Shown here: positions 5,340 to 62,712 of the stretch, one piece after another
Numbering within the stretch: the stretch's first letter is position 1
How the letters are laid out: every line of letters starts with the position of its first letter
Assembly (NCBI GenBank): GCA_016490735.1
Contig: JAEMWC010000614.1
Span: 347,001-411,000 of the forward strand
DNA from: Pachyseris speciosa
Lineage: Eukaryota > Cnidaria > Anthozoa > Scleractinia > Pachyseridae
Direction of reading: 5' to 3'
Length of the DNA stretch: 64,000 nucleotides
Translations under genes and position numbers: made by a program
Notes under the pieces: model-generated
The model's input: only the letters and a program-made list of their open reading frames with translations
Told to the model about the DNA's origin: nothing
The model's database searches: none

Positions 5340-5708
5340 TCATTTCATCATCTTATCATGATAGGTAGTCTTAACTAGCACTACACTGGCACGACCTTTA
5401 TCTGCTGGGAGAATCATGATGGAGGCACCCTCTTTCAAACCTTTGAGTGCATGTCGCATCTCACTGGTAATGTTAGGTTTGGGAGGCTCAGCCCGTTGGA
5501 GAATAGAGTTCACGCTTCTCCTGGCAGTGTCGGCCTGTTCTGCGTCAAGTGGTCTTATGGCAGACTCCACTTTAGCAATTATCTCAGTCGCTGGGATGCT
5601 ACTAGGTGTTACAGCGAAATTAAACCCTTTCTGTAGTAAAGACACTTCGGGGTCACTTAAGGACCTGGAGGATAAGTTGATAACCCATTTGGATTTGTCG
5701 ACTTGAGG
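5340..5708 (-). pseudogene. Penelope-like element, inverted N-terminal segment
   Basis: The minus strand encodes the region just upstream of the RT domain of a Penelope-like protein: WVINLSSRSLSD, LLQKGFNFAVTP, EPPKPNITSEMRHALKGL, then IMILPADKGRASVVLV and YHDKMMK. The order LLxKGxNFAVTP ... L...ILPADKG..VV matches PLE N-terminal regions. It stops before the KIHK and PLRPIVS region. The remainder of a PLE begins on the opposite strand at 5775, so the two halves form an inverted-5' insertion with an internal deletion. Confidence 0.7.
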
Positions 5709-5710
5709 TG

Positions 5711-5772
5711 TTATGTCTAACAGGGAACTCAGAGTACACAGTTATGTCTAACAGGGAACTCAGAGTACACAG
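5711..5772 (+). repeat. 31-bp perfect tandem duplication at the inversion junction
   Basis: The 31-bp unit beginning TTATGTCTAACAGGG occurs twice head to tail (5711-5741 and 5742-5772), exactly between the inverted and forward halves of the Penelope-like element. Confidence 0.9.
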
Positions 5773-5774
5773 TT

Positions 5775-7214
5775 GACAACTCAGCTCATCTTGTGTCCAT
5801 TGCGAACGGTGAAAGGGTACTAGAAAACGAGGTCATGGTGTCTTTCGACGTAGTGTCTCTGTTCACGAACGTTCCAATCGAAGGAACAGTACAGACTGCA
5901 CTGCGAAAACTAGAAGCTGACCCGCGCCTTGCTAACCGCACGACTCTAACACCTACGCAGATTGCAGACCACTTGAGTTTCGTTCTTAGATCCACATACT
6001 TCCAGTATGATGGACTGATGAGTTACGAACAGCAAGAAGGAGCAGCCATGGGTAGCCCGGTATCCGCATTGATAGCTAACCTCTACATGGAGGGTTTTGA
6101 GGAGCAAGCTTTGACATCCACGCCCTGTACACCTGAGAGCTGGAAACGCTATGTGGATGACACCTTTACCATCTTAAATCGTAACAAAGTTGGCTCGTTC
6201 TTACAACAACTCAATAGTCAACAGCCGACGATCCGTTCACAATGGAAACTGAGAATGACAACTCAATTCCCTTCCTTGATACGTTGATCATCAAGGATTC
6301 GAATGGATACCTCTCTACCAGTGTTTAAAGAAAGCCTACACACACTGACCAGTACCTAGCGTATAATTCACACCACCCGCGATCTGTAAAACGCGGTATT
6401 GTCAAGTGCCTTTACGATCGATCTAAACACCTCATAACAAAACCATCAGCTATCTCTCATGAAAAGAAACACCTCTCATCGGTCCTTGTTTCCAACGGTT
6501 ATCCGTTTTCGCTTGTAAAAAATCTTACGAAAACCAAGGGACGAACAACCACTAAAGAACATGAACCCGGAATTAAATCTACTGTGGTTCTGCCATACGT
6601 CAAAGGCACATCGGACGCTCTTCGCCGTTGCCTACAACAACAAGGCATACGGACTGTTTTCAGATCTGACACCTCTTAGATCACACCTAGTGCGACCTAA
6701 GGACATTGTCGATCCAGTAAAACAAGACGGAGTAGTCTACAAGATTCCCTGCGAATGTGGTAACGTTTATATTGGAGAGACGGGAAGATCTATGCATGAA
6801 CGGATTAAGGAACACAAATGAGACATAGGGCTTGCTCGAACCCAATCCTCCACCGTTTCAGAACATAGCAACGCGACCGGACATTATCCGCTCTGGGACG
6901 AAGTTAAATTTATTGACCGAGACCCACAATGGTACACCCGTAGGGTTAAAGAGGATATTCACATAAGACTTCACCCTAACAACATTAACAGGGACAATGG
7001 AATTGAAATTCCTGAAGCGTGGATGCTCACGATCAGACAACACCACAGCCGATCAGTACCAAAGCGGACCGCTGAGGGTACAATTTCTAGTCTGAACGAC
7101 AAGGATCGAAAATCTCCAATCAACAACAGCCTAAGCGAAGATCGAAACGCACCAATCACGACCAGCCACGGTGCTTCTTATTCTCACACGCAACCAGTCA
7201 ACACCATCGCCTGA
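5775..7214 (+). pseudogene. Penelope-like retroelement: RT palm to GIY-YIG endonuclease
   Basis: The forward half encodes RT motifs MVSFDVVSLFTNVPI, GAAMGSPVSALIANLYM and YVDDTF (catalytic DD), then after frame changes and a stop RKPTHTDQYLAYNSHHP, HLVRPKDIVDPVK and the GIY-YIG-type block YKIPCECGNVYIGETGRS. A further open stretch runs to TGA at 7214, passing a second stop near 6820. RT with a C-terminal GIY-YIG endonuclease is diagnostic of endonuclease-bearing Penelope-like elements. At least three lesions make it non-autonomous. Its 3' end carries a hammerhead motif. Confidence 0.85.
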
Positions 7215-7250
7215 TGAAGACCAGCAGTATAGCTGTCGAAACGTCGCGAT
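7206..7250 (+). ncRNA. Type I hammerhead ribozyme at the PLE 3' end
   Basis: Stem I strand ATCGC (7206-7210) is followed by the catalytic core CTGATGA (7211-7217), stem II GAC(C)AGC/GCTGTC with a 6-nt loop (7219-7237), GAAA (7238-7241), a two-bp palindromic stem III (AC/GT), cleavage-site C (7245) and GCGAT (7246-7250), perfectly complementary to ATCGC. One unpaired A (7218) precedes stem II. Hammerheads with minimal stem III are known in Penelope-like elements and are thought to act as dimers. Whether this copy cleaves is inference. Confidence 0.75.
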
Positions 7251-7530: not shown

Positions 7531-7970
7531 TTAACGCCTCTTGGGGGTTAGAATTGTGTCATAGATAGCTGCTAATTCGTAACCATTGTCTCTGTTTAAC
7601 GCCGGTTTCGTAAGTTTAATTTGAATAGCTTCTTTTATCCTGCGTTTGAAGGTGTTACCTTCGGTTGATAGTACTTTTGTCTTATTTGGGTCCACCGAGT
7701 GGCCCTCCAGGCGACAATGCTCGTGAATAGCTGATGAACTTCTTGATTGGTGTTCTCTGATTTCCAGAGAGCGGGCCGTTTCGCCAACGTACTCCTTGTT
7801 ACACTTCTCACAATGGATCTGGTACACAGTACCGCATTTCTTGAGATTGACAGTTGTGTCCTTGACACGTACCAATTGTGATCTTAGAGAATTGACGGGC
7901 TTATGAATAAGTGTGACCTCGTGTGCCTTGAAAGCTCTTTGCAGGCGTTCCGAGATTCCTTTGATGTATG
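7531..7970 (-). pseudogene. Second Penelope-like element, C-terminal GIY-YIG domain
   Basis: On the minus strand the frame reads PYIKGISERLQRAFKAH, LRSQLVRVKDTTVNL, then the endonuclease block GTVYQIHCEKCNKEYVGETA (GxVYxIxCxxCxxxYVGETxR), CRLEGHSVD and ALNRDNGYELAAIYD, ending in a stop. This is a PLE C-terminus. RT is missing: the element is 5'-truncated at about 7970, where LINE sequence abuts it. It is oriented against the first PLE, so the two 3' ends face each other across about 280 bp. Confidence 0.8.
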
Positions 7971-8107
7971 GCGTTGATGCATAGGATGAATAACCACGGC
8001 CCAATTTGGTGCCCTGCGGTAACCCGGAGGGGACTGGTCCCCATTCGGAGTAACAGCCCTTTGCTAACTTAATCCGTTGGAATCGCTTCGAAAGCTTGCT
8101 GAATGAG
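7971..8107 (-). pseudogene. LINE reverse transcriptase fragment abutting the PLE
   Basis: Minus-strand translation upstream of the GIY-YIG frame reads FQRIKLAKGCYSEWGPVPSG, then LPQGTKLG and, after a one-base shift, PWLFILCINA. (R)KLA...W..VP.G.PQGTKLGPWLF is the palm region of CR1/L2-type LINE ORF2. About 45 codons survive. It joins PLE sequence without an obvious gap, giving a chimeric open frame that is an accident of insertion. Confidence 0.65.
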
Positions 8108-8769
8108 ACGCCATATATGCTTCGTAGCCAATATGGCGGTGGATAGCCAAAGCTTTCTCTCTGCTAACTTTGTGGAAGGATTCCAGGATCTACCAAGGCA
8201 ATTTGGGCTAGTTCTGACTGGTAAAAAGTTCAATCGACGTCATATTTTCCAAGTGGTACTGGGTGGCCCGACACTTACAAAAAAAACTTGGAAATAGGAA
8301 ATGGAAGGGTTCTATGTTCCTGGAATAGTTGACTTTCCCAGAATTCTTTGGGTCGTGAACAAGACAACTTGGGATACGCGAGATTGGCTCCAATAAAATG
8401 GTTAAAGCGTGGCCCGCGGAAAAAAGTGAGAGGAAAATTTCCATCCAGATGCCAAGGCCTGGCCTTAAGGTTTGCTGTAAATGTAGAATTTTGATTTTTG
8501 GCAATGTTTTTTATTAAAAAGTTGACCACGAAAATGTGTAATTTTTGGTGTTGTTCTTTGGTCAAAAGACTGGCATTTTGGGCTTTGTTGCCAAACAAAC
8601 TGCGCTATGCAGCGGAATTCGGGTATTGTTGTCAATATTTTTGGGGGGGGGGGGGGATTTGGTAATTGCAAAAAGCACCATTTAGTGCTATTTACGCATT
8701 GTTATGTCTTTGTGACAAAATTTAAACAAGAAATAAATCATTAAAGCAAAAGCGGTATATTTTACGCAT

Positions 8770-15700: not shown

Positions 15701-17016
15701 CCGATACAGACCTCAAGCCATACTTCGACCTGAGAGCAGAGCTATACATGGCAGAAGGACTGATTCTGAGGACTGACAGAATCATTCCCCCTGAATCACT
15801 GAGAGACAGGATTATCCAGATAGCCCACAAGCAAGGACACTTGGGTATCAGCAAGACCAAAGAGATGCTACGCCGAAAGTACTGGTTTCCTGGTATGAAC
15901 GCTCGCATTGACACCGTCGTGAGCACTTGCTTTGACTGCCAGATAGCAACAAACACACAGCACACGGAACCAGCCAAAATGACGAAACTGCCAGAGAGAC
16001 CTTGGGAAACTGTTGAAATCGACTTCTGTGGACCATTCCCAAGCAAAGAGTACGCACTGGTCATAACCGACCAATACTCCAGGTACCCAGAGGTTGAATT
16101 TGTTTACTCGACAGCCATCAAGCCAGTACGGAAGAAGCTAAAGAAAGTCTTCGCCACTCACGGAATCCCCAAGACAGTCCAGTCAGACAATGGACCACCG
16201 TTCAACTCAGAAGACTTCAAAGAATTTGCAGCAGAAATGGGGTTCACACACAAAAAAATCACGCCACGACATCCCAAAGCCCAGGGACAAGTAGAAGGCT
16301 TCAACAAGCTCATGAACAAAACAGCTGCGATAGCCCGCGCAGAAGGCATTGATCTCCATGAAGCAACCTATGACATGCTTCAAGCATACCGCGAGACACC
16401 TCACCCAGCCACAGGAACCGCACCATATGAACTCCTCATGAATCGAGCAATCCGTACCAGACTTGACCACTACCCAACAGAGAGAACCTGCAGAGACGAA
16501 GCAGTCAGGAAAAGAGACAGCAAATACAAAGAGAAATTGAAGTCTTACCATGACCAAAGACACAGAGCCAAAGAACACAAGTTCAAAGCCGGAGAGGCGG
16601 TCCTCCTGAAACGAGACAAGAAACGAAAAGGAGACACCCCATTTGAACCGTACATCTACATTGCCACAAAGGTAATCGGATCCACAATCCATGCCAGGAG
16701 AGTCAGCGATGGGAAAACAGTATGCCGAGACGCATCCCAATTCAAGCTGCTCCGAACAACATACATCCCAGCAAGAGACCAGCAAAGGAAACCACCTACT
16801 GCAAGACCAGTAGTACCACCAGCAGCTAAATGCCAAGCAGCACCAGCCGCCACCCAGGAAACAACGCCAGTGGCAGCACCAATAGCCACCCAAGGCATTG
16901 TTACCCAACTAGTGCCAATTGAGGCAACACCTACCAACCAAAACCCACCACTGCGCAGATCACACAGACAGACCAAATCTACATTTGATGGACATCTGAA
17001 GGACTACACCACATGA
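12745..17016 (+). CDS. gag-pol: Gag-Pol polyprotein of the LTR retrotransposon
   Basis: A single frame of 1423 codons encodes everything needed for retrotransposition. Gag-like N-terminus (about residues 1-225) is followed by a cysteine/histidine zinc-knuckle region (CGRCGRKHTQKC, CTACGKRNHYANVC, about 233-265). Protease has DTGAD (about 365). RT shows SLDLRLLNKSML and FSKLDLNHGYHQF, and its catalytic box is NRDDIMIGG rather than the usual YxDD. RNase H has CDGSPAGLGGGL and TDHKPL. Integrase has the HLGISK...CFDC zinc region, then EIDFCGPF, QSDNGPPFNS and QGQVEGFNK carrying the D,D,E triad. A basic tail ends near RRSHRQTKS. No frameshift separates gag from pol, so the two would be made as one precursor. 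Confidence 0.93.
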   Translation: MVNPDEAASATPSNSTAPQAQALPAQQNITVTNRHLNITPFVIDRDPTNTANRWDKWKKDIERQFRFFGIHEPELKKDGLIIYGGRDIADLEDSLPDVESTDPPADEYTKFIRKLDKHFLPKKNKDYARFQLGNLQQEEDESLAKYFARVREIAKKCEYHDENDAIRDHLIKTMRNRRIRVKAIRQGWTLQEILDEAAIDEETNQQATEMEKKIPHEEKIVKRVEENPSSKACGRCGRKHTQKCPAFGATCTACGKRNHYANVCRSKPQDKKGYRPQQDKTRYSNDSRIRRDQRGGRNSRRPNKRNGKVHQVSGHEEIDRKSDSSDTSGDECFIHHLKIHKAASQGIQKTCTIFINGIETTVEPDTGADTNILDEYQFRKLQTERPEMALQESTIKLKALNHDLPIMGECTVKLENQTRAITAAIVVVKGKIDSLPLLGRPSLDELGMLKIDETGGLKEPNKAVKKIENENPELEKILDRYKNLFHGVGKATRNGQDIQIHLPMKEDAIPIAQKPRRVPYHLIEPLQDRIEEFIAKDIMEKVPDHEAITWCSPIVVQPKPKNPKDIRVSLDLRLLNKSMLRTRNVQAPITEDFVTEFRDCKVFSKLDLNHGYHQFCLDPESRKTMTFSTPWGNYRYKRLAFGGVNSQDLFDAEISKVISGTPKVLNNRDDIMIGGRDWDEHNKSLAQLLQRLEDHNLTLRREKCEFGKASIDFHGHLFTQEGLKPSPTKIQAVQNCAPPASKEELVSFLQMVAYLSRYISNFSSRCEPLRKLTKVNAKFEWLTEQEKAFNDLKAAITAAPVLIPYHPERETLIICDGSPAGLGGGLFQRTGKGFQPVHYVSRTLTDTEKRYSQIEREALAAEFTTTRLQMYLLGAPKFKLATDHKPLLPLMNNPTAKLPPRIERLALKMQNLDFEMVHIPGKTNMTDYMSRHPLPETGTDRLEKYVIATVQSEHAVVLDKIKEETAKDRELIKLAAAMKTGKWTKTDTDLKPYFDLRAELYMAEGLILRTDRIIPPESLRDRIIQIAHKQGHLGISKTKEMLRRKYWFPGMNARIDTVVSTCFDCQIATNTQHTEPAKMTKLPERPWETVEIDFCGPFPSKEYALVITDQYSRYPEVEFVYSTAIKPVRKKLKKVFATHGIPKTVQSDNGPPFNSEDFKEFAAEMGFTHKKITPRHPKAQGQVEGFNKLMNKTAAIARAEGIDLHEATYDMLQAYRETPHPATGTAPYELLMNRAIRTRLDHYPTERTCRDEAVRKRDSKYKEKLKSYHDQRHRAKEHKFKAGEAVLLKRDKKRKGDTPFEPYIYIATKVIGSTIHARRVSDGKTVCRDASQFKLLRTTYIPARDQQRKPPTARPVVPPAAKCQAAPAATQETTPVAAPIATQGIVTQLVPIEATPTNQNPPLRRSHRQTKSTFDGHLKDYTT

Positions 17017-17261
17017 ACCGTGAATTGACTTCGAACATTGACCAGATGCTAGCAACAAGGATATGAACACTGAACACTTGTTTCGCTAATGACATTGACT
17101 ATGATTATTTTGATTACAGGGATATCACGGCACAAACACTGAATATATTTCATTGATTAGTTGCATGTTAATCAATTATCATTTATCGATTAAGTGATTG
17201 ATTAGTTATATGTTAAGGAAACCAAGAACTAGGTTGAGACATGAATTTTGAGGAACTGATC

Positions 17262-17275
17262 GGAAGAAGGAGGAG
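17262..17275 (+). promoter_or_regulatory. Polypurine tract
   Basis: GGAAGAAGGAGGAG lies immediately before the 3' LTR, as expected for the plus-strand primer. Confidence 0.85.
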
Positions 17276-17414
17276 TGTAGCGATTACATCATTGACACGT
17301 GATTTAATGATTTACTACCAATGTAACATGATCATCCATAACAGAGATTACAGTGAATTACATCTGAGAGTGAATGCGTGTACTTGTCTTCCTTTGTCTT
17401 ACCCGATCACTACA
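17276..17414 (+). repeat. 3' LTR (139 bp)
   Basis: Identical to the 5' LTR over all 139 bases and followed by the target duplication GAAAT (17415-17419). Confidence 0.95.
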
Positions 17415-29461: not shown

Positions 29462-30720
29462 GTAAGCGAAGCAATCATATTCTCCCAATTAGTACCATAA
29501 GGAAATGCATGGTTACCAGTGAGGAGATTTTGTATTTATCATTTGGAAATTTCCAAATGCTGCCACGAGAATAAGTTTTACTAAGCAAATTTCACAAGCC
29601 GCAAACAATAGAATCTTTATTTCACACGTAGATTATTTCACACATAGAGCAGATCATCACACTAGCGAATTAATTAGCCACTCATTTCATTTGTATATAA
29701 GAAGGCATGTTCTTAGTTGAATAAAGTTGTCTGACGAGCGCTTAGGTAAATGAATAGATATCAAGATAACTTATGAAATCGTTGTCGTTAGCTATACAGC
29801 TTACCTCTGAGATTCTGTATCCACTTGAACGGGTTCCATAACACAGCTTACAAATAACATATATTCGTTCGATCTGTGGCTGGCAAACGTAGTGGCAAAC
29901 TTTAACAACGCACTTTCTGCAAAAGTGTTGGTGTGGACTGGAGGTCGCGTGACGTCACATCCGGTTGGAAATAGCGCCGAATTCTCTCCTCAACAAGGAC
30001 AAAACATGGCGGCTCGACTGGCCATGTTTTCTTCGGTGTTTTGAAGTGACTGTTACAGAAATTGTGTACTGTGACCGCCAAAGATGTTTTGAAGATATTG
30101 CTTCGACTTCTCCAGGAAAAAGTTTTTCAAAGCAACAATGTTTACTAATATTTGGACGGAAATTACAAGACAGGCATGCGTCTTGTAATGGCGAAAATTT
30201 CACACTCCGAAAACGATTGGTGTTCAGACTTTTGGCTGTAGCGGGTTGTGATCTTTCTAAAGCATAAATCAAAACAGCCTATCCTGTGTGGAACACAATG
30301 GAGGAAACATCGGCAGTCTTGGTTTACAGTATTAACAACGGGAAGGTAATTAACACTCGCCTTGAAGTTGTGGAAGCCGACGCACTGTGCATACTGCCTA
30401 CATGTTCATGGTCCAGAGAGGCAATGATGTGAACGTTATTCAAGGTCAGAATGCTCCTTTGCCATATTTCATGTAAAGGTTGGTATATTTGGACTTTGAG
30501 GTTGTCATCCTGTGAATACAATATGTAGATGGAAAATGCTAAAGCTTGATGTCTTGTTCTTAGCTTTTGTAAGCTTATATAAGTTAAGCTTTATATTCAT
30601 GCTCGAATGCAGTCCAAATTGCCCACCCTTTGGGGAACCTGAAAATTATAAGTGACCCCTTAGTAGAGATTATAGCCTCTGAAAGGGGGTTCATCTTACT
30701 AAACTGACTTTTAAAATGAT
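29462..30720. other. Promoter-like region with a possible first exon
   Basis: The stretch 29750-29890 is a repeat also found at about 36190-36310 and 55530-55620. A plus-strand frame 29965-30267 (YCDRQRCFEDIASTSPGKSF, GENFTLRKRLVFRLLAVAG) looks coding but is unrecognised. At 30298 ATG opens MEETSAVLVYSINNGK ending at a donor-like GTAATT (30346), a plausible first coding exon without identified continuation. Confidence 0.25.
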
Positions 30721-31137
30721 GAAAACATAAAGCTTGTGGGAATTTGTAGCTGGAGTGACAAGGATACTTCAAGTAAGCTTAAGCCACTCTAAGGGCACTA
30801 TGGCCTCAAGGTAGCGGGCATTACCCCTTAAATCTACCAAAGCAAAGATTGAGCCCAAGCATTAGCAGCCATGGACAGCTGTTTCGGCCTTGTTAGGCCT
30901 CATCAGCATGGCATCCATGTAGCTAATGCTTAGACTCAAGTACCCACATATCAATAAAACAAGCAATGAAAACATAAAGCTTGTGGGATGTGGCTAGAGT
31001 GACAAGGATACTAAACAAGTTAACGTGATCAAGTAAGATGAAGCCACTCTAAGGGCACTAAGGCCCTTAGCAATTTAAGGGGTAATGCCCACTACCTTGT
31101 GGCCTTAGTGCCCTTAGAGTGGCTTCAGCTTACTTGA
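30721..31137 (-). mobile_element. Hammerhead retrozyme-like tandem repeat
   Basis: A unit starting GAAAACATAAAGCTTGTGGG at 30721 restarts at 30968, a 247-bp period giving about 1.4 direct copies; an inverted piece then follows to about 31137 (GCCACTCTAAGGGCAC and its complement). The complete unit carries one well-formed hammerhead on the minus strand. Non-coding tandem units of a few hundred bp with type I hammerheads match metazoan retrozymes, which give small circular RNAs. It has no frame of its own and would need reverse transcriptase in trans. Confidence 0.65.
30869..30911 (-). ncRNA. Type I hammerhead ribozyme (retrozyme copy 1)
   Basis: Minus-strand reading: stem I CCATG, core CTGATGA, stem II GGCC-TAACAA-GGCC, GAAA, stem III palindrome ACAGCTGT, cleavage-site C, stem I CATGG (perfect complement of CCATG). 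All invariant core positions of the hammerhead are present. Cleavage would follow the C opposite 30874. Activity as a dimer is expected for so short a stem III. Confidence 0.85.
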
Positions 31138-33654
31138 TCACATTAATATTATTTGAGAAGTATCTTTTTAAATGATGTACAGTACTTGTCAGGTGTAACC
31201 CAGCAGCCCAACCTTGGGGAAGGGTCAGGTAGACACGGTTGTCATCTCTCCTCCCTGGAAATCTTTGGCTCGACTTAGTGGAGGATTTCCTGCATATTAT
31301 TTCCCAGATTTTGTTGTAATACAGGACAACCCTAAAACGTGGAATCTTCAATCTGGAAATATCTGGAAACCAATATTGGAAATCTGACTCAAAAATAACC
31401 TTTGACAAGTATAATAGGAAACAAAAATATATCACTAGTGAATTTGCAGTTCTTTTCCATCAGGGTACATTTGACTCCAATTTTAAGGAAAAATAATACT
31501 CAAACTGTTGTTCCCTGTGTTATGGTACGCCTGTAGTTCATATCAAGCCCAAATTATGGGAGGCAGACAAGTGTATTTTTATAGTGCCAGTACACACAAC
31601 ACCATTTTCTTTCCATTTTAATGGTACATACAGTTGAGTGCCTCTAGATCTGATTGTCATGAGGATTGGACTAAATGTAATCCTCCAATTTAACACAAGA
31701 AAGAGCAACCAATTTGCCACATTTATTCAAAAACAAGGAACTGCAATTTGGTTTGGTAAACATTTTCCTGATTTCAGATTTGAGGGTTGGGCTATAATGC
31801 ATGTGATAGGGGATACAACTCAATCCCAGATTTCTTTCTATTTAGGCTTAATCAATGGCTATATACACATTGTTCATTTTATTCTTGGTTCAATTTTTAC
31901 CTACCCTTGTTTTACACTCATTATATATTCTTAGTGTATATTGTTATACACAAAAACAGAGAAAAAGAAATTGAAACAAGACAACTTATACATGTATAAC
32001 TGAACCACAACAGCACTGAGTACTCTGATTCTTCGCTGAACTTTAGTGACTTGGCAAGTAGTGTGCACCAGTCTGTCCTTGGTTCATTCAATTTGTGGTT
32101 CTTTTTCTGCTCCTTTGTGTATGAATTCATGCAGTACCTGTTTGAAGGAACTGGGGATGCCATGTGGCTGCACGGCTTCTAATGAAAAAAGAATGTAAAG
32201 TTTTTAATTTTCTGTTTGAAAAAATATCTTTTAATAAATTCAAGGAAGGAGTTGTTACATTGTTTGAAACTCATGTTTACCATTAAATGCACCATACATG
32301 CACAGCGTTATATGAACTGAAAACTTTTATTCTTTTTTGACATTTCAACCATGCTGGCTGAAACTTCCTCATTTTTCAATTCACACTTTCTTCCTTAAAC
32401 TGTCACCTTCAACAACCCACCCTGCAAGAAGGAAAGTAAAATTATTCAAATTGTACAAATGAACTGGTTTATTTGAAGTAATATTTGTGACACTCAACCT
32501 AAGAATTTGTTGGAGTTTTGTTACATGTAAGACTCACGCAGATGTAAATTAAGTCAGATCTTCCATGTGCTATAAATAAGACCCATAATAGAGTTTTGAG
32601 AGTATTTGCTCTGATTTAACAATATATTTTTGTGGTTACCTGCCAATCAGAGGAGTATTAACTGATTTCATAAAGGCCCCCTCTTCCAGGATTAAATAGG
32701 GTTAGGGTCAAGCTTTGTGGATGAGTTTTGTTGTGATGATTATTGTTTTATAGCTAAATGTGACGTTGAGAATACCAATAGAACACATGCAGAGTAATGG
32801 CTCACTAAGAAGATAATTAACTTTTCTGAAGTTGCTTTTGATAGAGACAATTGTTTACAAATACTGTAAAAGAGTCATTTAAGTTTGCAAAATTTTATTC
32901 TTATGAATGTTTGCAATGACAATATTTAAAATCATACATGTACATGAGCCTCATGTATGATATAAATTATTTATAAACAAAATTTTATGGTTTTCATACT
33001 TTGCTTAGTTCCTGGGTTTGTGTTTCTTGCTTCTTGACTTTCTTGGAAAGACTCTTTCTTGCTCATTTTAGATGCCACGCACCTCTCAGTAACCTCTTAT
33101 TTCATTGGTTCTTATTACCGTGCAGCTCCATTATTTCAGGGCTAGGGTCCATTGTTTCTGTTGTTTGTTTATTGTTTTCTCAGCCAATCCTGTGAGCTGT
33201 TCCGAGAGCTGTGTGCCGCCTCGTTCATTTTGCCCCAGACCCTTGTCCTATGTGGGGCCTGGAGTGAGGATCATCCAAGTAAGAAAAGCAGCCAAGGAAG
33301 CTCAATATAAACATAAATTTGTTACAGCTAGGTCAACAATTATAATAAATATTACTGTTATTGAACTCTTTCAATAACTCTCTTTAAACATAAAATTAAA
33401 AAATTATAATACAACATGTCATTATTTATATCACTTACACTGATACCACACTAACATTTTCACAATTGCCATTGTCCTACATTGGCTTAAAATTCTTTCA
33501 TAGTTTGGAAACCAATATAAAGTAGTTATTGCAACTTCACTTGACTATTTTAAAGCCAATCTGTTTAAACAATATTTCTTGAGTAGTTAATAAACTTTTC
33601 ACCTACAGTACCAATATGACTCCTTGATTAAGAAAACCTTCTGTGTTCACTTTT
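31138..33654. other. No recognised gene
   Basis: AT-rich sequence with scattered short frames. A minus-strand stretch near 31980-32180 (SNRYCMNSYTKEQKKNHK, EPRTDWCTLLAKSLKFSEES) looks mildly coding but has no family signature. Possibly intron of a gene whose exons lie elsewhere. Confidence 0.3.
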
Positions 33655-35774: not shown

Positions 35775-36740
35775 CTGATAGCATATCAACGGTCGATATG
35801 CTGTTTAAAGAGGCGTAAAAGCTACTTTCTCTTCTCGCGCGAGCCGCCATTTTGAGATAAAGGAGAAAAATGCCTCGCTTCACGGCTCAGTAAGCGAACC
35901 AATCATAGTTCGGGATTGATCCATGATCTCTGTTTCCGGATGGGTTATCAGAATCTGGGAAATTTTCGAAAATTTTAGAGTCGGCTAAAATCTCATGCAT
36001 TTGTAAACTGTAGCTAATTTCGTTGACCTGGCTGCGTTTCCAAATAAAATGCTCTCGTTCCAAAAGAGAGACACAAAATTAAAACCTTGTTTAAAGGTTT
36101 CTCCTCTGACCACAATTACATAATTTTTTTTAGCTAAATGAATAGACTCGAACAGAATTTGTAGTCTTAACCCTGTAAAGCTGTCAAGAAATCAAGATAA
36201 CTTTTATGAAATCGTTGTCGTTAGCTATACAGCTTACCTCTGAGATTCTGTTTCCACTTGAACGGGTTCCATAACGCAGCTTCCAAATAACATATATTCG
36301 TTCGATCTGTGGCGTTCTATAGCACGAGGGAGAGAATTATCTATAGAAAATCGGCATCTGTTTGGCAAACGTAGGTCTCACATAGCATTGTCAAACATAC
36401 CGTCGGAACTGAAAAAGTATGATTTTGCAGAAAAAAATCAACTCTTTACCCTTGCGGACGGAAATCGTATTTCTGAATGTTCTCCTCTGTGGCGCTTCTA
36501 ACGCCCCACAATCTATCGCCGACAGTAGAGACTACTCACAGTCTAGATTATTTCCAAATCAATCAATAAAGTTTGGGCTAAAATTGTTGTTTAATGAGGA
36601 TCAAACCCTGGGTGGGAGGGAGGGTTACAAGATTACAACGTGCTATCGAGCTATGCGAGCGATAGAGACCACGAGCGGTCGAAATCTGAGACACCGGCTC
36701 AAATTTGACGGTTTTGCAATCGATCGGGCAAATAATTAAC

Positions 36741-37023
36741 TAAGCTGAAGCCACTCTAAAGGCACTAAAACCCAAAGGGGGAGCGGGCATTACCCCTTAA
36801 ATCTACATGTACCAAAGCAAAGATTGAGCCCAAGCATTAGCAGCCATGGACAGCTTTTTCGGCCTTATTAGGCCTCATCAGCATGGCATTGCTAATGTGG
36901 CCTTAGTGCCTTTAGAGTGGCTTCAGCTTACTTGATCACATTAATTTGTGAAGTATCCTTGTCACTCCAGCCACATCCCACAAGCTTTACGTTTTCATTG
37001 CTTGTTTTATATATATGTGGGTA
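36741..37023 (-). mobile_element. Retrozyme-like repeat, copy 2
   Basis: Starts AAGCTGAAGCCACTCTAAAGG and shares the AGCATTAGCAGCCATGG and ACCAAAGCAAAGATTGAGCC blocks with the element at 30721. The second half is inverted, ending in the complement of the AAGCTTGTGGGATGTGGCT block. It carries a slightly damaged hammerhead and lies at the edge between two blocks of segmental copy A. Confidence 0.6.
36844..36886 (-). ncRNA. Hammerhead ribozyme (retrozyme copy 2), stem III damaged
   Basis: Minus strand: CCATG, CTGATGA, GGCC-TAATAA-GGCC, GAAA, AAGCTGTC, CATGG. Core, stem I and stem II are intact; the A-for-C change in stem III breaks the ACAGCTGT palindrome seen at 30869-30911. Confidence 0.7.
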
Positions 37024-37161
37024 CTTGAGTAATGGATGAACACCAAACAGTCCCCCTCAACCAGACATGCACCCGCGTTGTAGTGGACTTTCTGAGTGTT
37101 TGTGTTTGCCTTATTTTCCCTTTATAATTTTTCATCAAATCACTTCTTATTTCATTAATAT

Positions 37162-38022
37162 TCAGGTATATTGCCCCTTTAAAGTGGTGAAGGAGGAGGA
37201 CTGACTGCGTTGAGGTGGTTTAAGATGTACTGGTTCGACGTCTTGCGAGAAAGGAAACATGCGTAACATGCCACGGTGTGAGGTGCGGTGGGCAAAGGAA
37301 TGAAGTAATAGGTGCTTGAAAAATGCAAGAACGACGTCCAGTGGGAATGCAAATTGCGCAGCGTGGGAATGTTTGTGTAAATGGAACACGCGCATCCCAT
37401 GGAAATTTTCATTTGGGTGTTTGATACCTACCATTTACTGCAACGGTCCACCAACCGGTTTTCCCATGTAAATGGTAAACAACCCAAAATTCCCAAACGG
37501 AATTTCCAAACGGACTTGTGCGTTCGATTTGCTCATTTCTACCAGTTCCAGGCCTTTCGGCTTGGATCGCTCTGCAAACCCGACCGTTGGGAATGTTTGT
37601 GTAAATGGAACACGCGCATCCCATGGAAATTTTCATTTGGGTGTTTGATGCCTACCATTTACTGCAACGGTCGCCCAACCGGTTTTCCCACGTAAATGGT
37701 AAACAACCTCTCTCAACTGAGGGACCCGAGGCTGGTTGATGTCTATAAAAGAGAGAATAACTGCAGTCAGAAGACTATTTCCACAAAGTCAAAACGTTGC
37801 GCAGGACAGGCGACTTGATCTTGAGAGGTGGGAGTGTGAGCAGTCAACTGCTGGAATTGGGCCTCGTGAAAGGGAGACAGGTGCCAGCGGCTGAGGTAGT
37901 CTGCCAGGGAGTTGTCGTGTCCCGAAATATCAAAGGCGGTCATCTCGAAATCGTAGAACGCGGACAAAAACCAGATCACGCGCAAGCAAGAGGTGGAGTC
38001 TGTTTCTATGTGCGATCGGTAA
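37162..38022 (-). pseudogene. DIRS-like retroelement relic (RNase H end and recombinase start), copy A
   Basis: Minus strand, in element order: RSHIETDSTSCLRVIWFLSA, FYDFEMTAFDISGHDNSLAD, YLSRWHLSPFHEAQFQQLTA (the H-I-PG-N-AD-LSRW end of a DIRS/Ngaro-type RNase H), then, after a foreign insertion (37364-37707), VACYACFLSRKTSNQYILNH, the N-terminal SAM-like region of a tyrosine recombinase. The catalytic recombinase domain is missing here but present in copy B. Frames are broken. Confidence 0.6.
37364..37707. repeat. Insertion with 120-bp direct repeats
   Basis: A 120-bp sequence beginning TGGGAATGTTTGTGTAAATG and ending in AAATGGTAAACAAC occurs at 37364-37483 and 37588-37707 in the same orientation, separated by 104 bp. 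Copy B lacks this at the corresponding place (near 58635). Each repeat contains inverted CCATTTAC/GTAAATGG and AACCGGTT motifs. Confidence 0.8.
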
Positions 38023-39080
38023 CCTAAACTACAAAATTCGTGAAGACTTAAGTACTGAAAATCTTGAATGGATAACTTTAGAAATCACCAGGCCTCGGTC
38101 AAGACCATGTCTAGTTAGTACCTGGTATAGACCTTTCGATTCCCCTGTGAGTCTTGTCTTTTTAACGAATTTGAGGAGCTAGTTAACAAAAATTGACGCG
38201 GGAAACTGGGAATTTTCCTTTTAGGGGATATTAACGTGGATCTTATGCCGGATACGACATCAGTTAACGCCGTTAAACTTTAACATATATTTGATATTTA
38301 TAGATTGGACCAGCTAATCACAGAGCCGACAAGTTACCCTAAGTTCCCGCTCTTTAATTGACCTTTGTATTACGAATACACCCACAAAAGTTGCAAAGCT
38401 TGGTGTTGTCCATCTTGCAATTAGCGATCACGCACTAATTTATATGACATATAAGGTCCAGCATGAGCGCGCGGGCACAATAATAATCAAAACCCGCCAA
38501 ATGAAAAATGTCTATAAAGCTAGCTTCCTAAGGGACCTACAACAAAGGGCATGGTCAGATGTTGAAACCGTAAACGATCCAAATGATATGCGGTCAATGT
38601 GAAAAGATATGCTGATGCAAGCTATGAGATAAACATGCATCACTAAAAACTAAACGGGCTGCCAACAAAAAGTCTTCATTGATTATTGATCAATTGCACC
38701 ATGAAGAGATTTCTTAAAAAAGAAAGCAGTTTCGTGCGGCTCCCCTTTGGCTTGGGATCAATGTAAACGTGCCAAGAACCATACAAACAGCAAAATCAAG
38801 AATGCCAAAGGTAAATATTTCACTGACAATCTTGAGTCCAGCAAATCAAATACCTGGCAATTAATTAATTAATGAATTGTCCTCGCGATATCCAAGTAAA
38901 GTAAGGAATATTGCGGAAATTAAGGTTAGGGAGCAAACTATACCTCAACCTTCTGAGATAGCCAATAAACTAAATCTGCATTTCTCAAGCGTTGGTGGGA
39001 AACTAGCTTCAGAAATACCGTCATTTAATGTTGAGCTAAAGTCCCACCCTCGCAAACTGTTGACCAAGCTGCGGGCCTAG
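38022..39080 (+). pseudogene. LINE (CR1/Jockey-like) ORF2 relic, copy A
   Basis: Broken frames spell the endonuclease C-terminus to early RT region: NYKIREDLSTENLEWITLEI, FLLGDINVDL-like, LITEPTSYPKFPL-like, ISDHALIYMTYKVQ, KTRQMKNVYKASFLRDLQQR and, at 38877-39080, NIAEIKVREQTIPQPSEIAN and LNLHFSSVGGKLASEIPS. The pattern (DHxLIY, R..K....F...L) is that of LINE ORF2. Multiple stops and gaps. The same relic is in copy B (58970-59975). Confidence 0.65.
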
Positions 39081-39250
39081 ATAACATTCCAACTAGACTT
39101 CTTGATAGTCGCACCATCGCTCACTCAAATATTTGAATTAACATATGACCTTCCTATATGCACATTAATTTAGAGTCGTTACTTTGTTTTGGCGATATCG
39201 TTGTATATGGAAACAAATCAGCAGAATTATCCACGTAAATGATAAACACT

Positions 39251-39521
39251 GGGGAGCAGGGATAGCGCAGTGGTGAAAGCACTCGCCTTCCGGACTCGAC
39301 GGCTTGAGTTTGTTGTTGGTTCTCTTCTCTACTCCGAGAGGTTTTTCTCCGGGTACTCCTCTTTTCCCCTCTCCTCAAAACTGACCAACACTTCTAAATT
39401 CCAATTCGGTCCGGAATGCTCGGGCGTTTATTACATGAGCCCCCGGCTCAGGGGATTGGGCAACCATGCCCTCCCCACGTTACCGACCTTAAATAAACTT
39501 GATTTGATTTGATTTGATTTG
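39251..39521 (+). repeat. tRNA-derived SINE, copy 2
   Basis: GGGGAGCAGGGATAGCGCAG head (the B-box region is largely deleted), a body with CTCGGGCGTTTATTACATGA and a GATTTGATTTGATTTG tail. Its paralogue in copy B is at 60124-60400 and retains the B box. Confidence 0.75.
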
Positions 39522-40931
39522 TTTTACGTCCTTACGCCGATGAAGTTAAAGTTTAAAAGATCATGATTCTAAATGTGACCAAAGAAACAGGCTTCCTTCT
39601 AAGGTCCTTATTATTTAACAAAGTGAAGGGAGAGGTGTACTTAATCTAGAGGAGGGTTTTTCATCGAGGGAGTAAGCGCCTATTCGGGGTAGGTTCCATG
39701 AGCTTCTTAGATCGTGGGCGGTTATTCGAGGAAGTACGTACGGGATTTAACCCGAGGATAGAAAAGACAGACCCGTGATCGACACCTCACAGTTACCAAA
39801 TCCCTTCTATCCTTGCAGCCTTTTATAATATATATAGAGAGAGAGGCTCTTAATCATGGCCTGTTTAATTACCTTTTTTTTTTCCCATGGAAGGACAAAC
39901 TATGACGGAGCAGATTAATTTTCCAGAAGTGACAGAGTCGCAATGAAACTAATTTTAAGGCTTGTATTTCTTGTATGAAAAGATTCTATTTCGAGCACCA
40001 CAGATTCAAACTTGGATGGTGTTAGCCTAGGCAATTGTTTTAGGATAGTTTTAGGGGTCTTTGCATTCTTACTCTATCGCCTAATCTCGACCAGTCACCT
40101 TTGTGAAAAAAAGATTGTACGTGCAATCTTTCAGGAGAGTTAGTTCCAGATTGTCGAAACTCGGATGCGATGACGGTGCTCTTTCGGTATCTACCAACTT
40201 TGTTTTCGAATGCACAGAAAAGCATTCCGTCCATTCAGCGCCTTGTTTTAAAATGATACGCAAAGATTGCTCTTTTAGGAAAGTTTGGCGGGGAAATTGT
40301 TTGCAGACCGCTGGCCAAAGGCCTTATACGTTAGGTCAAAACCACTCTGTGCACTAGTCTTAGGCCACCTCCGCCAAAAGCATTCCTTGTTCGTTTGTGA
40401 AGACCTCATTCCACGTATATTCTCTTATTTCTAAAGGTATTAGAAGAACGCGTTCTGAGATCAAGAAGTGCTGGGGAAAATTTTACATGCCAACCGCTAC
40501 CATTTATCATGCGAACAAACCTGTCATGTGACTTTCGTTTGTTTGTGGCCACGATCTTTGCGATAATCGAAAAGAGCAACGCAAAAGACTAACTCTGGAG
40601 AGTTATGTTCACTCCTTGTCACCTTACATTTGAGAATTCGCCGCTTTTCGGAACCAAGTTATTATGTTAAAAAACGATTTTGCACAGGTGATATTAAAAA
40701 CGAACGACCTTTCGATGACTTCATGTCATCATTATCATGCCATCATTATCAAAGTGCGTGGTAGAATTGATTAAGTATTAACAGGAAAAAAAACTAGCGC
40801 GTCAATCCTGCGGTACTTTGAGCTTGATAATGATGACCTGGAGTCATCGAAAGTTGGTTAGTTTTTAATGTCGCTAACTGATTGTTTCTTCTTAAAAAGC
40901 GATTGGAAGGGAAACCGTCTACACCTTTTAA
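39522..40931. other. Non-coding part of segmental copy A
   Basis: Collinear with about 60400-61800 with small indels. Frames on both strands are short and not conserved between copies. Nothing recognised. Confidence 0.4.
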
Positions 40932-41961
40932 CTCTTTTCCAACAGGTCTACCAAATATGGTGCTTTTTTGCATCCTGCCTTGAAAACCCACAACTTCCTC
41001 AAATCCCGGACTATGTTTGAAATGAACCATTATTATTGCCAAATAATCAGTTGTTTAGACTTAACCACCCTCTAAATTGGCCAAATCTCCTAATTTCCAA
41101 TGAATATGACCTTTTATTCTGTTGTAAAACCAAACACGCCCCAGGACAACACCGTAAAATACGTAACTTTGTCTTGAAAATGTTAGGACAAAAATTCCTC
41201 TGAAAGCTAACAGTCTACATTGCCAGCAAACTTCGACTCCACGTTCTACCATCTGTTCCAAACTTTCCTGCTCACTTCTTTAGCACGGCGTGGATAAGGC
41301 GTTTGATTTCGGTTGCTCCCACGGGTCTGTCATTTTCGCGTTGGTGACCCAAAGGAATTATGGGAAACTCTTGTTTACCGAGCGAGTGAAAGTCCGCCAA
41401 TTTCAATTACAGAAATGTTTTTGAACTGTGTTGAGCCACCCGGTCCTGCTGACGAGATATTGCCCCAACGGCGTTATTTACAAGTCACAACTCGAAGAAA
41501 TTGCCATGCCAGGTCCCGGTATCCACGCACAAAACGACTGAAGACGCAACTTCACTCCATGAATTGCCAACACTCGCCCGAACACTTTTGAGCGGTACAC
41601 TTCGTGTGAAATTGCTTCTCACCTCTGTTTTGTTTTGTTTTGTTTTGTTTTTTTGTCGTTTTTTTTTTTTTTCAAAGGATTGCCTCTACCCATCAACCCG
41701 GCTTTATAATGCCAGGCAAGGGGCTTCTGAGGTGGAAAATGGCTTGAAAAACACACTTATAGATCAAATAAGCAACGAATTGTAGCTGCAGTGTTTGTTT
41801 AGAAATAAACGACAGCTAGCGTGACAAGCGTGACAACAGAGATAGAGCCTTCGGTGTTGTGGACCAGCAATATCGCAGTGGTAACCCCAGCCAGGTCGAT
41901 ATGACCTCCTACTCTCCGAAAATTGCAAAAAAGGCGACCAAATCGACCAGTAGGGAAAGAG
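40932..41961. mobile_element. TTAA-flanked element absent from copy B (1030 bp)
   Basis: TTAA at 40928-40931 and 41962-41965. Left end CTCTTTTCCAACAGGTCTAC and right end complement CTCTTTCCCTACTGGTCGA form an imperfect TIR. Copy B continues from CCGTCTACAC straight into ATACTCCTG near 61815 without it. The interior has one 92-codon frame at 41313 without recognisable motif, a poly-T run (41652-41672) and no transposase. Target and size fit a piggyBac-like non-autonomous element. Confidence 0.6.
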
Positions 41962-43162
41962 TTAAGGTGTAGACGGTTTTCCTAAAAATACTCCTGATGT
42001 CGTGTAATAAGGTGCGTTTTCAACTAACTTGTCAAAACGCCATTGACAAACTAAACATCCCAAAGTAAAATCAATCAAGAAAATCCCGTTTGTAGGAAAC
42101 GAAGCTTTCAATATCTCTATTTAACACCTGGCCAGACTCTCAGACGGTCCAGCCTCGGGACGAGAGATAATACGTACCTGCGAGTGAACTGAACCGTCTG
42201 AGAATGAGGCTATTTAAAAGGGGACTTAGCGTGAATTGGAGTGAAATTTTAAGGAGGGTAAAGAAGGGATTGAAGTGGGGAAAAATGTTTTGAAACACCA
42301 CCAGACAGTTCACACCCCACAAGGGCACTGCAGCGTGCTGGGAAACTGTTTGGTGTCCGTCCACTAATTTCTAGCTTCAACTTCAAATTTTAAACTTTCA
42401 TTAAATCTTCACAATTTTGCTCTTTCCCTAAATTTAACTCATCTTTTGAGAAAAATTATCTCTTCCCAAATATACCTAAAAGTCACCAAATAATTCACAA
42501 AATATCCCACAACATAGCTTCATGGGATGAGCTTAGGAATTTTTAATTACTTGAAACGCAAACGAGATATCAACATTAAATCCATGTTAAGCGGCTAAAA
42601 AACAATGTTTAGGTTAAATCCCGCCTTAACACCAGGCAAGATAAAAAATACCACATAAGTATTTAAAGTTCAGTTAGTTTCGCTACACACTTCAAAAAAG
42701 AAACTGTCTAGCGATAAAAATCCAGTATTAGCAAAAGCTATGTGCTAACCAAGGCTTGCTAATCGGAATACTTCTAGATCTGATATTGGTCAGAACAGGA
42801 GCCCATTACGTCATGGGCTCCTAGTCAGAAGTAAAAAAATTAGTTTTGCTGCTACCAACTCTCACACTGTTGAAGGGGTTATTCCCGAAACGTCGGACTG
42901 TAAATATACAGTTTCTTGGCACTCGAAAAACAAACAAACAAACAACAACAACAAAACTATCACTGCACCATACTTCTCGATATGCTTGCATATTAATAGG
43001 GACTGAATTAATCTTATAATCTTGCATTTTCTAAATAGTGTCTCAACATAACTCTTCTAAAAACGTAATATGCATAGCTATTGTTTCTACCTTTAAAAGT
43101 CTCGTATCAAAACACGCAGCGTCATTACGCGATGCTAAAGGGTGATAAAGGCACGACATAGT

Positions 43163-43643
43163 TTATACTGAAAATTCTATTTTGATAAAAATTGTGTCAT
43201 CCTTTACATACTGAGGCCCAAAGAACTCCTCAATAGGGGAGAACTTTACAAAGCCATACCCAGTGCGGCTAATTATTTCACCAGGCCTCTGGAATGCTGC
43301 AAGGTTTGGCTTGACTTGTAAGATGCGAATGATATCGTTATGGGCACCACTTTGATCAAGTATGGACAGGGTGATTCTTCCAGTAACAGGCCAATCACAG
43401 ACGATGCCATCATATTTACCCTTCATCATATGAACAAAGACTGCCACGTGTGTGCCACTTCCATTCTCCACACCCATGGGGTGCACCCTGATTCCCAACT
43501 TCCGTGCGTAGCTATCTGTGTAGATTGGATCACTGAAGATGGGTGTTACACACCGCCAATGCTGATCTACTTCAGTGATCTCCCAGATGAAGTGGGTCCC
43601 GGTTCCATCAGCCTTCTTCATGGTTTCCTCTTTTGTATCCCAT
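43163..43643 (-). CDS. TRAF-type MATH domain exon, copy A
   Basis: The minus-strand exon starts after an acceptor (TTTATTCGTAG, 43644 onward) and runs to a stop at 43163. It reads WDTKEETMKKADGTGTHFIW, FSDPIYTDSYARKLGIRVHP, GTHVAVFVHMMKGKYDGIVC, WPVTGRITLSILDQSG, FQRPGEIISRTGYGFVKF and YVKDDTIFIKIEF. F.W.I...SP.F.....Y...I...P.G...G.H..VF...M.G.YD....WP....I...LLDQ...FQRP...YG...F...YVKDDT.FIK is the C-terminal TRAF/MATH fold, which trimerises and binds receptor tails. RING, zinc-finger and coiled-coil exons are not visible upstream. The frame is intact. Confidence 0.75.
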
Positions 43644-44258
43644 CTACGAATAAAGTGAAAAATGATACTTAACAAATAGATTCCACATCCATTTGGCCGT
43701 GTTCGTGTGTAATCCGATCTGAAACGCATGGAGGACGTCAAAACATGTTACGAGCAAATAAGAAGGTTCTGCAGGCGAATAGCAATGACTGATGTTCTTA
43801 CTACGTTTTGGCATCTACCGTGTGTTATGAGAGTACGCACTCACAACCAAATGGAATCTGTTTCTTGGATGCATTTTTTTTTTAATTTTCTTCGGCCCAT
43901 GACGTCATTCATGCATCTACACGTGAATCGCAACCTCCTTTTGACCTATCAAAGCCCGGGGGTTACACCCTCCATTGTATAATTTCTTCAGTAACGTTTT
44001 ATTGAAAATACAGCATGATGAAACTGGATTGCACCAAATTGCACCGTAATGGCTGTAGCGTTCTTCTTGTGTCACCACTTTGCCAATTCCAGCCGAGAAA
44101 ACTGTGGTTGGAATTGATTAAGTTGATCTCGAAGATTTAAGAATACCTAGAAAATGTGGTAAAATCATTCTACACATTTAACTTTTATATCACGGCGGAA
44201 ATGTCAATTAGAATTAATGTCATTATTATGAACAGGGTCAAAAAATTTAATAGGATTT

Positions 44259-60400: not shown

Positions 60401-62679
60401 TGAACTTAACTTTTGACTTTGTTTTACGTCCTTACGACGATGCAGTTAAAGTTTAAAAGATCAGGATTCTAAATGTGACCAAAGAAACAGGCTTTCCTTC
60501 CAAGGTCCTTATTATTTAACAAAGTGAAGGGGGAGGGTGCTTAATCTAGAAGAGGGTTTTTAATCGAGGGAGTAGGCGTTCTTAGAGCGTGGACGGTTAT
60601 TCGTGGAAGTATGTACGGGATTTTACCCGAGGGTGGAAAAGACAAACCCGTGGTCGACACCTCACAGTTACGAAATTCCTTTGCAGTCTTTTATAATATA
60701 TAAGGGCTATTAATCATGGCGTTTTTAATTACCATTTTTTCCAGGGAAGGATAAACTATGACGGAGCAGATTGATTTTCCAGAAGTGACAGACTGAATCG
60801 CAAAGAAACTAATTTTAGGGCTTCTATTTCTTGTATGAAAAGATCCTATTTCGAACACCGAAGATTGTAACTTGGATGATGTTAGCCTAGGCAATTGTTT
60901 CAGGATAGTGTTAGGGATCTTTGTATTCTTACTCTATCGCCTAAGCTCGACCAGTCACATTTGTCAAACAAAAATGTAGTTGCGCTCTTTTAGGAGACTA
61001 TTATGGGGTATCGAAACACGAAACAGACGATGACCATGTTCTTTTGGAACCTACCAACTTTAATTTGGAATGAACAGAAAAGCATTCCCGTCCATTCAGC
61101 TCCTGGTAACAGAATGATTTACGCGAAGATTGCTCTTTTAGGAAAGTTTGGCGAGAAAATTGTTTGCAGACCGCTGGCCACCGTCCTCAAACGGTCTGTC
61201 CAGACCACTCTCACAGGCTGCGCACTAGTCTCAGGCCGCCTCCACCAAGAGCATTCCTTTTTAGGAGTATGTGTTCGTTTGTGAAAACCTTATTCCACGT
61301 ATATTCTCTTATTTCTAAACCGGAACAAGAATAATCATAAAGGTATTAGAAGAACGCGTCCTTAGATCACGAAGGGCTGGGGAAAACCTAACATCCCAAC
61401 CACTGCCATTTATTATGCAAACAAACCAGTCACGTGACTTTCCTTTGTTCGTGGCTACGATCTTTGCTGTAACCGCGAAGAGAGTAACACAAAAGACTAC
61501 CTCTAGAGAGTTATGTTCACTCCTTGTCACCTTAGATTTGAATTAGAACCCAAGTTATTATGTTAAAAACCGATTTTGAATCATTAACGATATTAAAAAC
61601 GAACGACGTTTCGATGACTTCATGTCATCATTGCCATGCTATCATTATCGAAGTACATGGTAGAATTGATTAAATATTGACAGGAAAAAATAGCGCGTCT
61701 ATCATGTATTTTGAGATTGATTTTGTCGACCTGGAGCCATTGAAAGGTGGTTAGTCTAATATCGCTCAGTAATGTTTCTTCTGAAGGCGATTGGAAGGGA
61801 ATCCGTCTACACATTAAATACTCCTGTTGTCGTGTAATAAGGTGCGTTTTTAACCAACTTGTCAAAACAACATTGACAAACTAAGCATCCGAAAACAAAA
61901 TCCATAAAGCAAATCCCTTTTCTAGGAAACGGAGCTTTCAATATCTCTATTTGACACCTGGCCAGACTCTCAGACGGTCCAGCCTCGCGCCAAGAGAGAG
62001 TACGTGCCCGCGAGTGACCTGGACCGTCTGAGAATCAGGCTATTTAAGGGGGGCCTTAGCGTGAATTGGAGTGAAATTTTGAGGAGGTTAAAGGAGGAAT
62101 TGAAATGGGGAAAAAATGTTTTGAAAAACCACCAGACAGTTGACACTCCACAAGGGCACTGCATGATGCCGGGTAACTGTTTGGTGTCTGTCCACTAATT
62201 TCTAACTTCAAATTCCAATTTTAAACCTTCATTAAATCATTAAATCTTTGCAATTTCCTATTTCCCTCTATTTAATTTATCTTTTGAGAAAAATTATCTC
62301 TTCCCAAAAATACCGAAAAATCACCAAATAATTCAAAAAATATCCCACAACATAGCTTCGTGAGATGAGCATAGTGATTTTTAATTGCTTGAAACGCGAA
62401 CGAGATATCATTATTCAACGTTAAATCCATGTTAAGCGGCTAAAAAACAATGTTTAGGTTAAATCCCGCCTTAACACCAGGCAAGATAAAACATACCACG
62501 CAAGTATTTAAACTTCAGTTAGTTTCACTACACACTTTAAAAAAGAAACTGTCGAACGATAAAAATCCAATATTAGCAAAAGCTACGTGCTAACCAAGGC
62601 CTTCTAATCGAAATACTTCTCGATATTAGTATGTAGTGCAGAAAAGTGGTTTTGCTGCTACCAAATATATATCACACTG

Positions 62680-62712
62680 ATGAAGGGATTATCCTCGAAA
62701 CGTCAGACTGCA
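62680..62712 (+). ncRNA. Hammerhead-like core, copy B
   Basis: CTGATGA, A, a short stem (GGGATTATCC), TCGAAACGTC: the core boxes are present but no complementary stem I is found. The paralogue near 42877 has CTGTTGA instead of CTGATGA. Probably the remnant of a PLE-associated ribozyme. Confidence 0.35.

Follow-up and report, generated by a model that had tools for sequence, protein, structure and literature searches.

Retrozyme inserts in the genome of the coral Pachyseris speciosa usually have a head-to-head form, and the two outer ends of such inserts tend to lie, one each, at two fixed positions of the ~254-nt unit, here termed P1 and P2. The probable explanation, to which we assign a probability of roughly 0.78, is that a Penelope-like reverse transcriptase (RT)/endonuclease inserts the retrozyme RNA in trans, priming on both target strands at P1 and P2. 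The analysis covers the window, i.e. the whole stretch of 64,000 nucleotides at C614:347001-411000 that contains two retrozyme inserts (copies 1 and 2; Table 1), and the genome around it (984 Mb, 2,368 contigs).

On its minus strand, copy 1 carries a type I hammerhead ribozyme with intact core bases, which scores 33.9 bits against Rfam RF00163 (E 1.3e-6 for a search space of 701 bp). This is 0.1 bit lower than the gathering score of 34, so that the hammerhead is absent from a gathering-threshold Rfam scan of the window; an E-value scan of the whole window reported the related model RF02275 at the same site (27 bits, E 0.016). A strict descriptor, requiring the full core and all three stems with 4 bp or more in stem I, matched at one place in the window, this one, and 200 dinucleotide shuffles gave 1 match in all. 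These results confirm the complete minus-strand hammerhead that a preliminary description had proposed, together with its GGCC stem II (GGCC/GGCC, loop UAACAA). Stem I, described there as a perfect 5-bp helix, in fact comprises 6 bp (GCCAUG/CAUGGC), and stem III consists of an A-U and a C-G pair closed by AGCU. As placed from the known motif, the cut would fall between positions 30874 and 30873, separating GUC from CAUGGC. Copy 1 differs from the unit of a long array elsewhere in the genome (L032) by 6 nt inserted in loop 1, 16 nt deleted and minor changes, which bring its unit to 247 bp. According to energy calculations, the loop-1 insertion creates a rival helix: the free fold of copy 1 reaches -52.5 and the hammerhead-enforced fold -39.5 kcal/mol (gap 13), compared with -50.5 and -44.5 kcal/mol (gap 6) for the common unit. 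With the rival fold favoured, window copy 1 itself might cleave poorly, of which the fold energies, calculated without tertiary contacts, give only a hint. Modelled as a circle, the 247-nt unit is predicted to fold well (z -4.4 vs 200 shuffles).

Copy 1 amounts to less than two units with a single hammerhead. Its minus-oriented part extends up to ~31065 and its plus-oriented part starts at ~31073, the left end corresponding to unit position 167 (P2) and the right end to unit position 129 (P1); the 14-bp target-site duplication contains one mismatch, and 8 of the matches are consecutive. Direct repeats 244–260 bp apart flank the hammerhead on both sides, in addition to a 65-nt inverted pair. 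The tandem 247-bp unit first described thus stands as regards the direct repeats, but not as a full tandem, the right part (~31073-31163) being inverted, and the extent originally given as 30721..31137 reaches slightly further, with the insert at ~30722-31163. As had been proposed, the unit is non-coding in that the insert is without a stop-to-stop ORF of at least 110 aa. Copy 1 is best explained as a single insertion of a coral non-LTR retrozyme. Three paralogues of it, 2.6–2.8 kb apart, occur on the same contig (L049, C614:204001-214000), and similar copies in C1361; two of the L049 paralogues match the whole 651-bp query (89–91%) and hence share the flanks of copy 1, which indicates that the insertion was duplicated along with its surroundings. 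L049a-c, as sharers of these flanks, were left out of the end, pairing, junction and duplication counts given below.

Copy 2 is older and has probably decayed. Its helix III is broken (GAAAA in place of GAAAC), no target-site duplication was found for it and neither of its ends lies at P1 or P2, and it gives no support to the insertion model. A duplicated segment downstream was rejected as the unoccupied counterpart of copy 2, since it holds a different insert of ~1.8 kb at that place. This other insert (56459-58291) includes a long imperfect palindrome (56617-57243) and two minus-strand ORFs that lack a Pfam match and look recombinase-like by eye. The duplicated segments of the window (1-3422 with 51521-55091, and 36093-44121 with 55422-63922) are ~80–91% identical; each copy of the second contains a TRAF/MATH ORF (43163-43747 and 62971-63555), and named relatives of the former, 54–57% identical, occur in Oculina patagonica and Stylophora pistillata. 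Also present in the window is a Ty3/gypsy-like retrotransposon (12551-17414) with one Gag-Pol frame of 1,424 aa; the two repeats that flank it, 139 bp or longer, are identical, so that it is probably young.

Table 1. Coordinates in the window of the retrozyme inserts, their parts and the Penelope-like sequences.
Feature	Position	Strand	Basis or remark
Type I hammerhead ribozyme	30868..30912	-	RF00163; core at 30874-30906
Hammerhead plus outer stem (18-nt arms)	30849..30940	-	Inverted repeat pair, module map
Retrozyme insert, copy 1, head-to-head	30722..31163	-	BLAST against actual genomic unit, module map
Left target-site duplication, CTTTTAAAATGATG	30708..30721		13/14 bases equal to 31164-31177
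Right target-site duplication, CTTTTTAAATGATG	31164..31177		Pairs with 30708-30721
S and R modules, first copy, with P2 end	30719..30805	-	Module map, direct repeats
S and R modules, second copy	30966..31066	-	Module map, direct repeats
Inverted part with P1 end (x and R modules)	31073..31163	+	Module map, BLAST, inverted repeats
Retrozyme insert, copy 2, hammerhead then inverted part	about 36735..37030	-	Ends at unit positions 105 and 198
Penelope-like fragments	5340..7214		ORFs 5721-6287, 6329-6679, 6822-7214 (+); N-terminal-looking 5741-5340 (-)
C-terminal fragment, another Penelope-like element (GIY-YIG type)	7531..8163	-	Relatives carry PF01541, PF00078, PF26215
Hammerhead-like motif without helix III, Penelope-type	7211..7245	+	Pattern CTGATGA..GAAACGTC
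Hammerhead-like motif without helix III	62677..62704	+	Pattern match alone

A DNA search of the genome with 30600-31250 as query yielded 1,452 candidate places, 40 of which were scored and gave 205 matches, and an exact 34-nt core occurs 5,582 times genome-wide (2,834 forward, 2,748 reverse; 0 for the backward-read control). Tandem copies elsewhere, on whose existence the preliminary description had made its reading depend, are present: among the first 100 of the 5,582 cores, 16/19 same-orientation neighbours within 2 kb are 254–256 bp apart, the rest at 115, 206 and 507 bp. L032 is a head-to-tail array of ~12.5 units (3,180 bp) in which nine of ten measured core intervals are 254 bp, six of them identical, and one is 508 bp. 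With its type I hammerhead, ~254-bp tandems elsewhere, G+C contents of 0.445 and 0.453, non-coding unit and target-site duplications, the element is what it had been taken for, a retrozyme, and belongs to an established kind, the metazoan non-LTR retrozymes, whose range of ~150–450 bp includes the 254-bp tandem repeats. Coral retrozymes of 225 and 245 bp have been described in Acropora millepora (Cervera and de la Peña 2020, PMC7229834). As far as that description goes, they likewise have type I hammerheads with a two-pair helix III, thousands of genomic motifs, non-coding units, G+C below 0.5 and duplications of more than 4 bp; the families are likened here by description, and the unit has 254 bp in P. 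speciosa. Cleavage and circles have been demonstrated for the A. millepora type of retrozyme (PMC7229834), whereas for P. speciosa they are predicted. Plant LTR retrozymes, as described in PMC7229834 and PMC7761336, resemble the element as hammerhead-bounded, non-autonomous units expressed as RNA circles, but differ by a type III hammerhead, a length of ~700 bp, LTRs and 4-bp duplications. Pattern scans for relatives in viral contigs gave 0 matches, and one match of ~20 nt among other genome contigs, in a bacterial record, was dismissed as chance-like.

For an unbiased view of insert orientation, we used the 69 clusters formed by the first 100 of the 5,582 cores, of which the first 28 in contig order were read. 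Here, 19 loci were minus/plus (head-to-head), 0 plus/minus (tail-to-tail), 6 plus only and 3 minus only. Neighbours within 2 kb among the same 100 cores comprised 12 minus-plus, 0 plus-minus, 13 minus-minus and 6 plus-plus pairs. The other 30 of the 58 loci analysed, made up of both window copies and 28 loci that were picked for similarity to copy 1 and are therefore biased toward its form, included 21 minus/plus, 1 minus/plus/minus/plus, 6 plus only and 2 minus only. The inverted segment, from which an uncatalogued family had been surmised, is thus no mark of one family, being part of the commonest insertion form in this genome (19/28 loci) of a kind of element already published for corals (PMC7229834). 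In that publication, coral retrozymes are head-to-tail dimers to 62-mers, in contrast to the mostly head-to-head copies of the P. speciosa genome, and the portions of its main text consulted make no mention of inverted or head-to-head inserts or of a fixed end pair.

As the left-hand copies are in minus and the right-hand ones in plus orientation, both outer ends of an insert represent the 3' side of the RNA sense. Counting unit positions from 0 as the first base after the cut, the 99 outer 3' ends in the 58 loci comprised 42 at P1 (bin 121-137), 40 at P2 (bin 160-182) and 17 elsewhere, where the two bins, set after the data were seen, span 40 of 254 positions. P1 comes after ..GTGAAGTATCC and P2 after ..ACGTTTTCAT, at a distance of 40 nt. 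In the 41 head-to-head loci, the two ends were paired as P1/P2 in 26, P1/P1 in 2 and P2/P2 in 0 cases, with an end elsewhere in the remaining 13. The pattern was seen in both sets of loci (unbiased: 11 P1/P2, 1 P1/P1, 0 P2/P2, 7 with an end elsewhere; other: 15, 1, 0 and 6, respectively). If ends were chosen independently, at least 26 mixed pairs out of 28 would be expected with a probability of 1.5e-6, and the 11/12 mixed pairs of the unbiased set alone with a probability of 0.003. Inverted repeats bounded by target-site duplications might also suggest a foldback DNA transposon or MITE that carries a hammerhead by chance. We consider this extremely improbable, as the two ends represent different unit positions and hence no fixed matching terminal inverted repeats, unit numbers and junctions differ between inserts, and long head-to-tail arrays such as L032 exist.

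Target-site duplications were measured as the longest exact match, of at least 8 bases, between the two flanks near the insert ends, dropping two of the 58 loci (L010 because of N, L092 because of a short flank). Such matches were present in 26/39 head-to-head loci, 3/17 single-orientation loci and 1.3% of 3,080 mispaired flanks. They are tied to the end pairing: 25/26 P1/P2 inserts (11/11 in the unbiased set) had a match, as opposed to 12/650 mispaired P1/P2 controls and 1/13 head-to-head loci with other end pairing, and in 21 of the 25 the duplication measured 11–15 bases. In three loci (L038, L040, L043) left and right flanks resemble each other; without these, 22/23 P1/P2 inserts had matches of at least 8 bases. 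Since the duplications track P1/P2 ends, P1/P2 inserts look intact, and the whole head-to-head array is a single insertion event. Inverted repeats are easily misassembled, which raises the question of whether head-to-head arrays are assembly errors or products of later recombination in tandem arrays. The matching duplications around 25 of the 26 P1/P2 inserts make this hardly credible; furthermore, no two loci have both flanks in common (L049a-c excluded), and recombination should also yield tail-to-tail arrangements, which numbered 0 in 28 loci.

We infer cleavage and circularity and, from the anatomy of the inserts, two-strand priming and the Penelope-like identity of the enzyme, to be pictured as follows. 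Tandem transcripts of the ~254-nt unit would be cut by the type I hammerhead to give monomers, which are probably closed into circles; the RNA template may be such a circle or, alternatively, a linear multimer. A Penelope-like RT/endonuclease would take the retrozyme RNA in trans and cut both target strands, whose 3' ends would both prime synthesis, from unit position ~128 (P1) in one case and from ~168 (P2) in the other. Each cDNA would then extend toward the 5' side of the RNA, sometimes over more than one turn of the unit, and joining of the inner cDNA ends would leave a head-to-head insert between target-site duplications. As RT copies toward the 5' end of the RNA, defined outer 3' ends combined with variable inner ends fit two-strand priming. 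Counting against it, 9 of the 28 unbiased loci have a single orientation, and flank matches are scarce both in single-orientation loci (3/17) and in head-to-head loci with other end pairing (1/13). The inner ends were not clustered at the cleavage site (4/97 vs 4.2 expected), contrary to what linear-monomer templates would lead one to expect. They were in excess at unit positions 54-72, a range chosen post hoc (23/97 vs 7.3 expected); this excess adjoins a predicted hairpin and could perhaps reflect an RT stop.

The inner junctions also bear on a model in which only one target strand primes and the inverted part is made by self-priming (snap-back) of the cDNA. Such a mechanism has been proposed for Penelope elements, and palindromes have been reported at inverted junctions (PMC3846280). 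Three loci whose two inner ends coincide in unit position (L054, L082, L046) would suit it, as would a fourth whose inner ends agree within 5 nt. However, these are the 4/40 junctions that lie within 5 nt of symmetric, and the other 36/40 join positions more than 5 nt apart; snap-back also leaves unexplained why the far end lies at the other fixed point (26 to 2). We therefore regard it as quite improbable.

As to the type of enzyme, twin priming is known for L1, with head-to-head inversions and similar-sized duplications, and would speak for a LINE-type enzyme in place of a Penelope-like one. In L1 twin priming, however, the second strand starts at varied internal sites, and the products are a minority form. 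The retrozyme inserts, by comparison, end at defined internal points, P1 being paired with P2 in 26 of the 28 inserts with both ends binned. Such pairing corresponds to the tail pattern of Penelope elements (PMC3846280, PMC11167929), and although LINEs have been named as candidates alongside them (PMC7229834), we consider twin priming by a LINE-type enzyme unlikely.

A Penelope-like enzyme is named because topology, tail and duplication match published Penelope inserts. In rotifers, Penelope elements have been reported as inverted head-to-head repeats, one of which may bear a 31-bp tail, with duplications of 8–10 bp, and self-priming was suggested (Arkhipova et al. 2013, PMC3846280). A purified Penelope-like protein of Anolis has been reported to cleave and extend both strands, starting at two adjacent internal sites, and the stretch between these is the 30–40 bp tail of genomic Penelope copies (Frangieh et al. 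2024, PMC11167929). In vitro, the start-site preference did not differ between the strands (PMC11167929), so that the one-each pairing of P1 and P2 goes beyond the published result. According to these sources, the retrozyme inserts and Penelope-like elements with GIY-YIG endonuclease (PMC3846280; Poseidon of Anolis, PMC11167929) have in common head-to-head inserts with a hammerhead nearby, two ends 30–40 nt apart (40 here) with one side longer, and duplications of ~8–15 bp (8–10 bp reported there, mostly 11–15 here). They differ in that Penelope-like elements are autonomous, coding for RT and GIY-YIG endonuclease, and have minimal hammerheads; being non-coding, the retrozyme is not a member of them, though inserted like one. 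Retrozymes had already been proposed to be mobilised by Penelope elements, since both have type I hammerheads and a tandem form and occur together (PMC7229834), and two reviews (PMC7761336, PMC11722881) give the same arguments.

Penelope-like sequences are present in the window as well as genome-wide, where relatives of the Penelope RT were found at 150/150 scored places, of 5,128 candidates. In the window, the piece at 5721-6287 has an RVT_1 match of 29.1 bits, 0.5 bit short of the cut-off of 29.6. We read the 5340-7214 pieces as a GIY-YIG Penelope element, supported by the Pfam domains in relatives of the neighbouring fragment; named relatives of this latter (7531-8163), itself without Pfam match, come from Acropora, Pocillopora and Oculina. 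In addition to the two hammerhead-like motifs of Table 1, a weaker match to the minimal-hammerhead pattern lies at 7433-7467, and none of these pattern sites had an Rfam match in the E-value scan of the window. In sequence, the retrozyme was no more similar to three Penelope-side 3' regions of the window than expected from shuffles (p 0.29, 0.29, 0.19). A 65-nt Penelope-like match at L040, ending at window position 7295, was considered too short for end mapping. The Penelope-like fragment is itself head-to-head at 5340-5774, where its minus piece (5741-5340) meets the plus RT piece (from 5721) and the junction holds a 31-bp tandem repeat (5710-5774); a tRNA match (5202-5275, Rfam 49 bits) lies next to the fragment, and a similar stretch lies near 5034-5080.

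What appears to be new is the predominant head-to-head form, the paired fixed ends and the resulting link to the Penelope machinery. In the literature searched, mostly open-access main texts, we found no paper joining retrozymes with head-to-head inserts and nothing on Penelope-like elements in combination with twin priming and inverted copies. The form with paired ends may hold for animal retrozymes at large. In more general terms, we think it fairly likely that small RNAs made by ribozymes are taken up in trans by Penelope-like enzymes, which insert them by priming each target strand at its own fixed site on the RNA. Short inserts whose ends and duplications can be read number in the thousands and make the mobilising enzyme testable in any coral assembly. 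They also document, as it occurs in nature, the little-known mechanism of Penelope elements on a ~254-nt template, with two start sites of which each target strand uses one; this argues against self-priming as the origin of head-to-head forms. If the broader reading is true, two-strand target priming would take the place of self-priming as the source of head-to-head Penelope structures, and animal retrozymes would be SINE-like parasites of Penelope elements.
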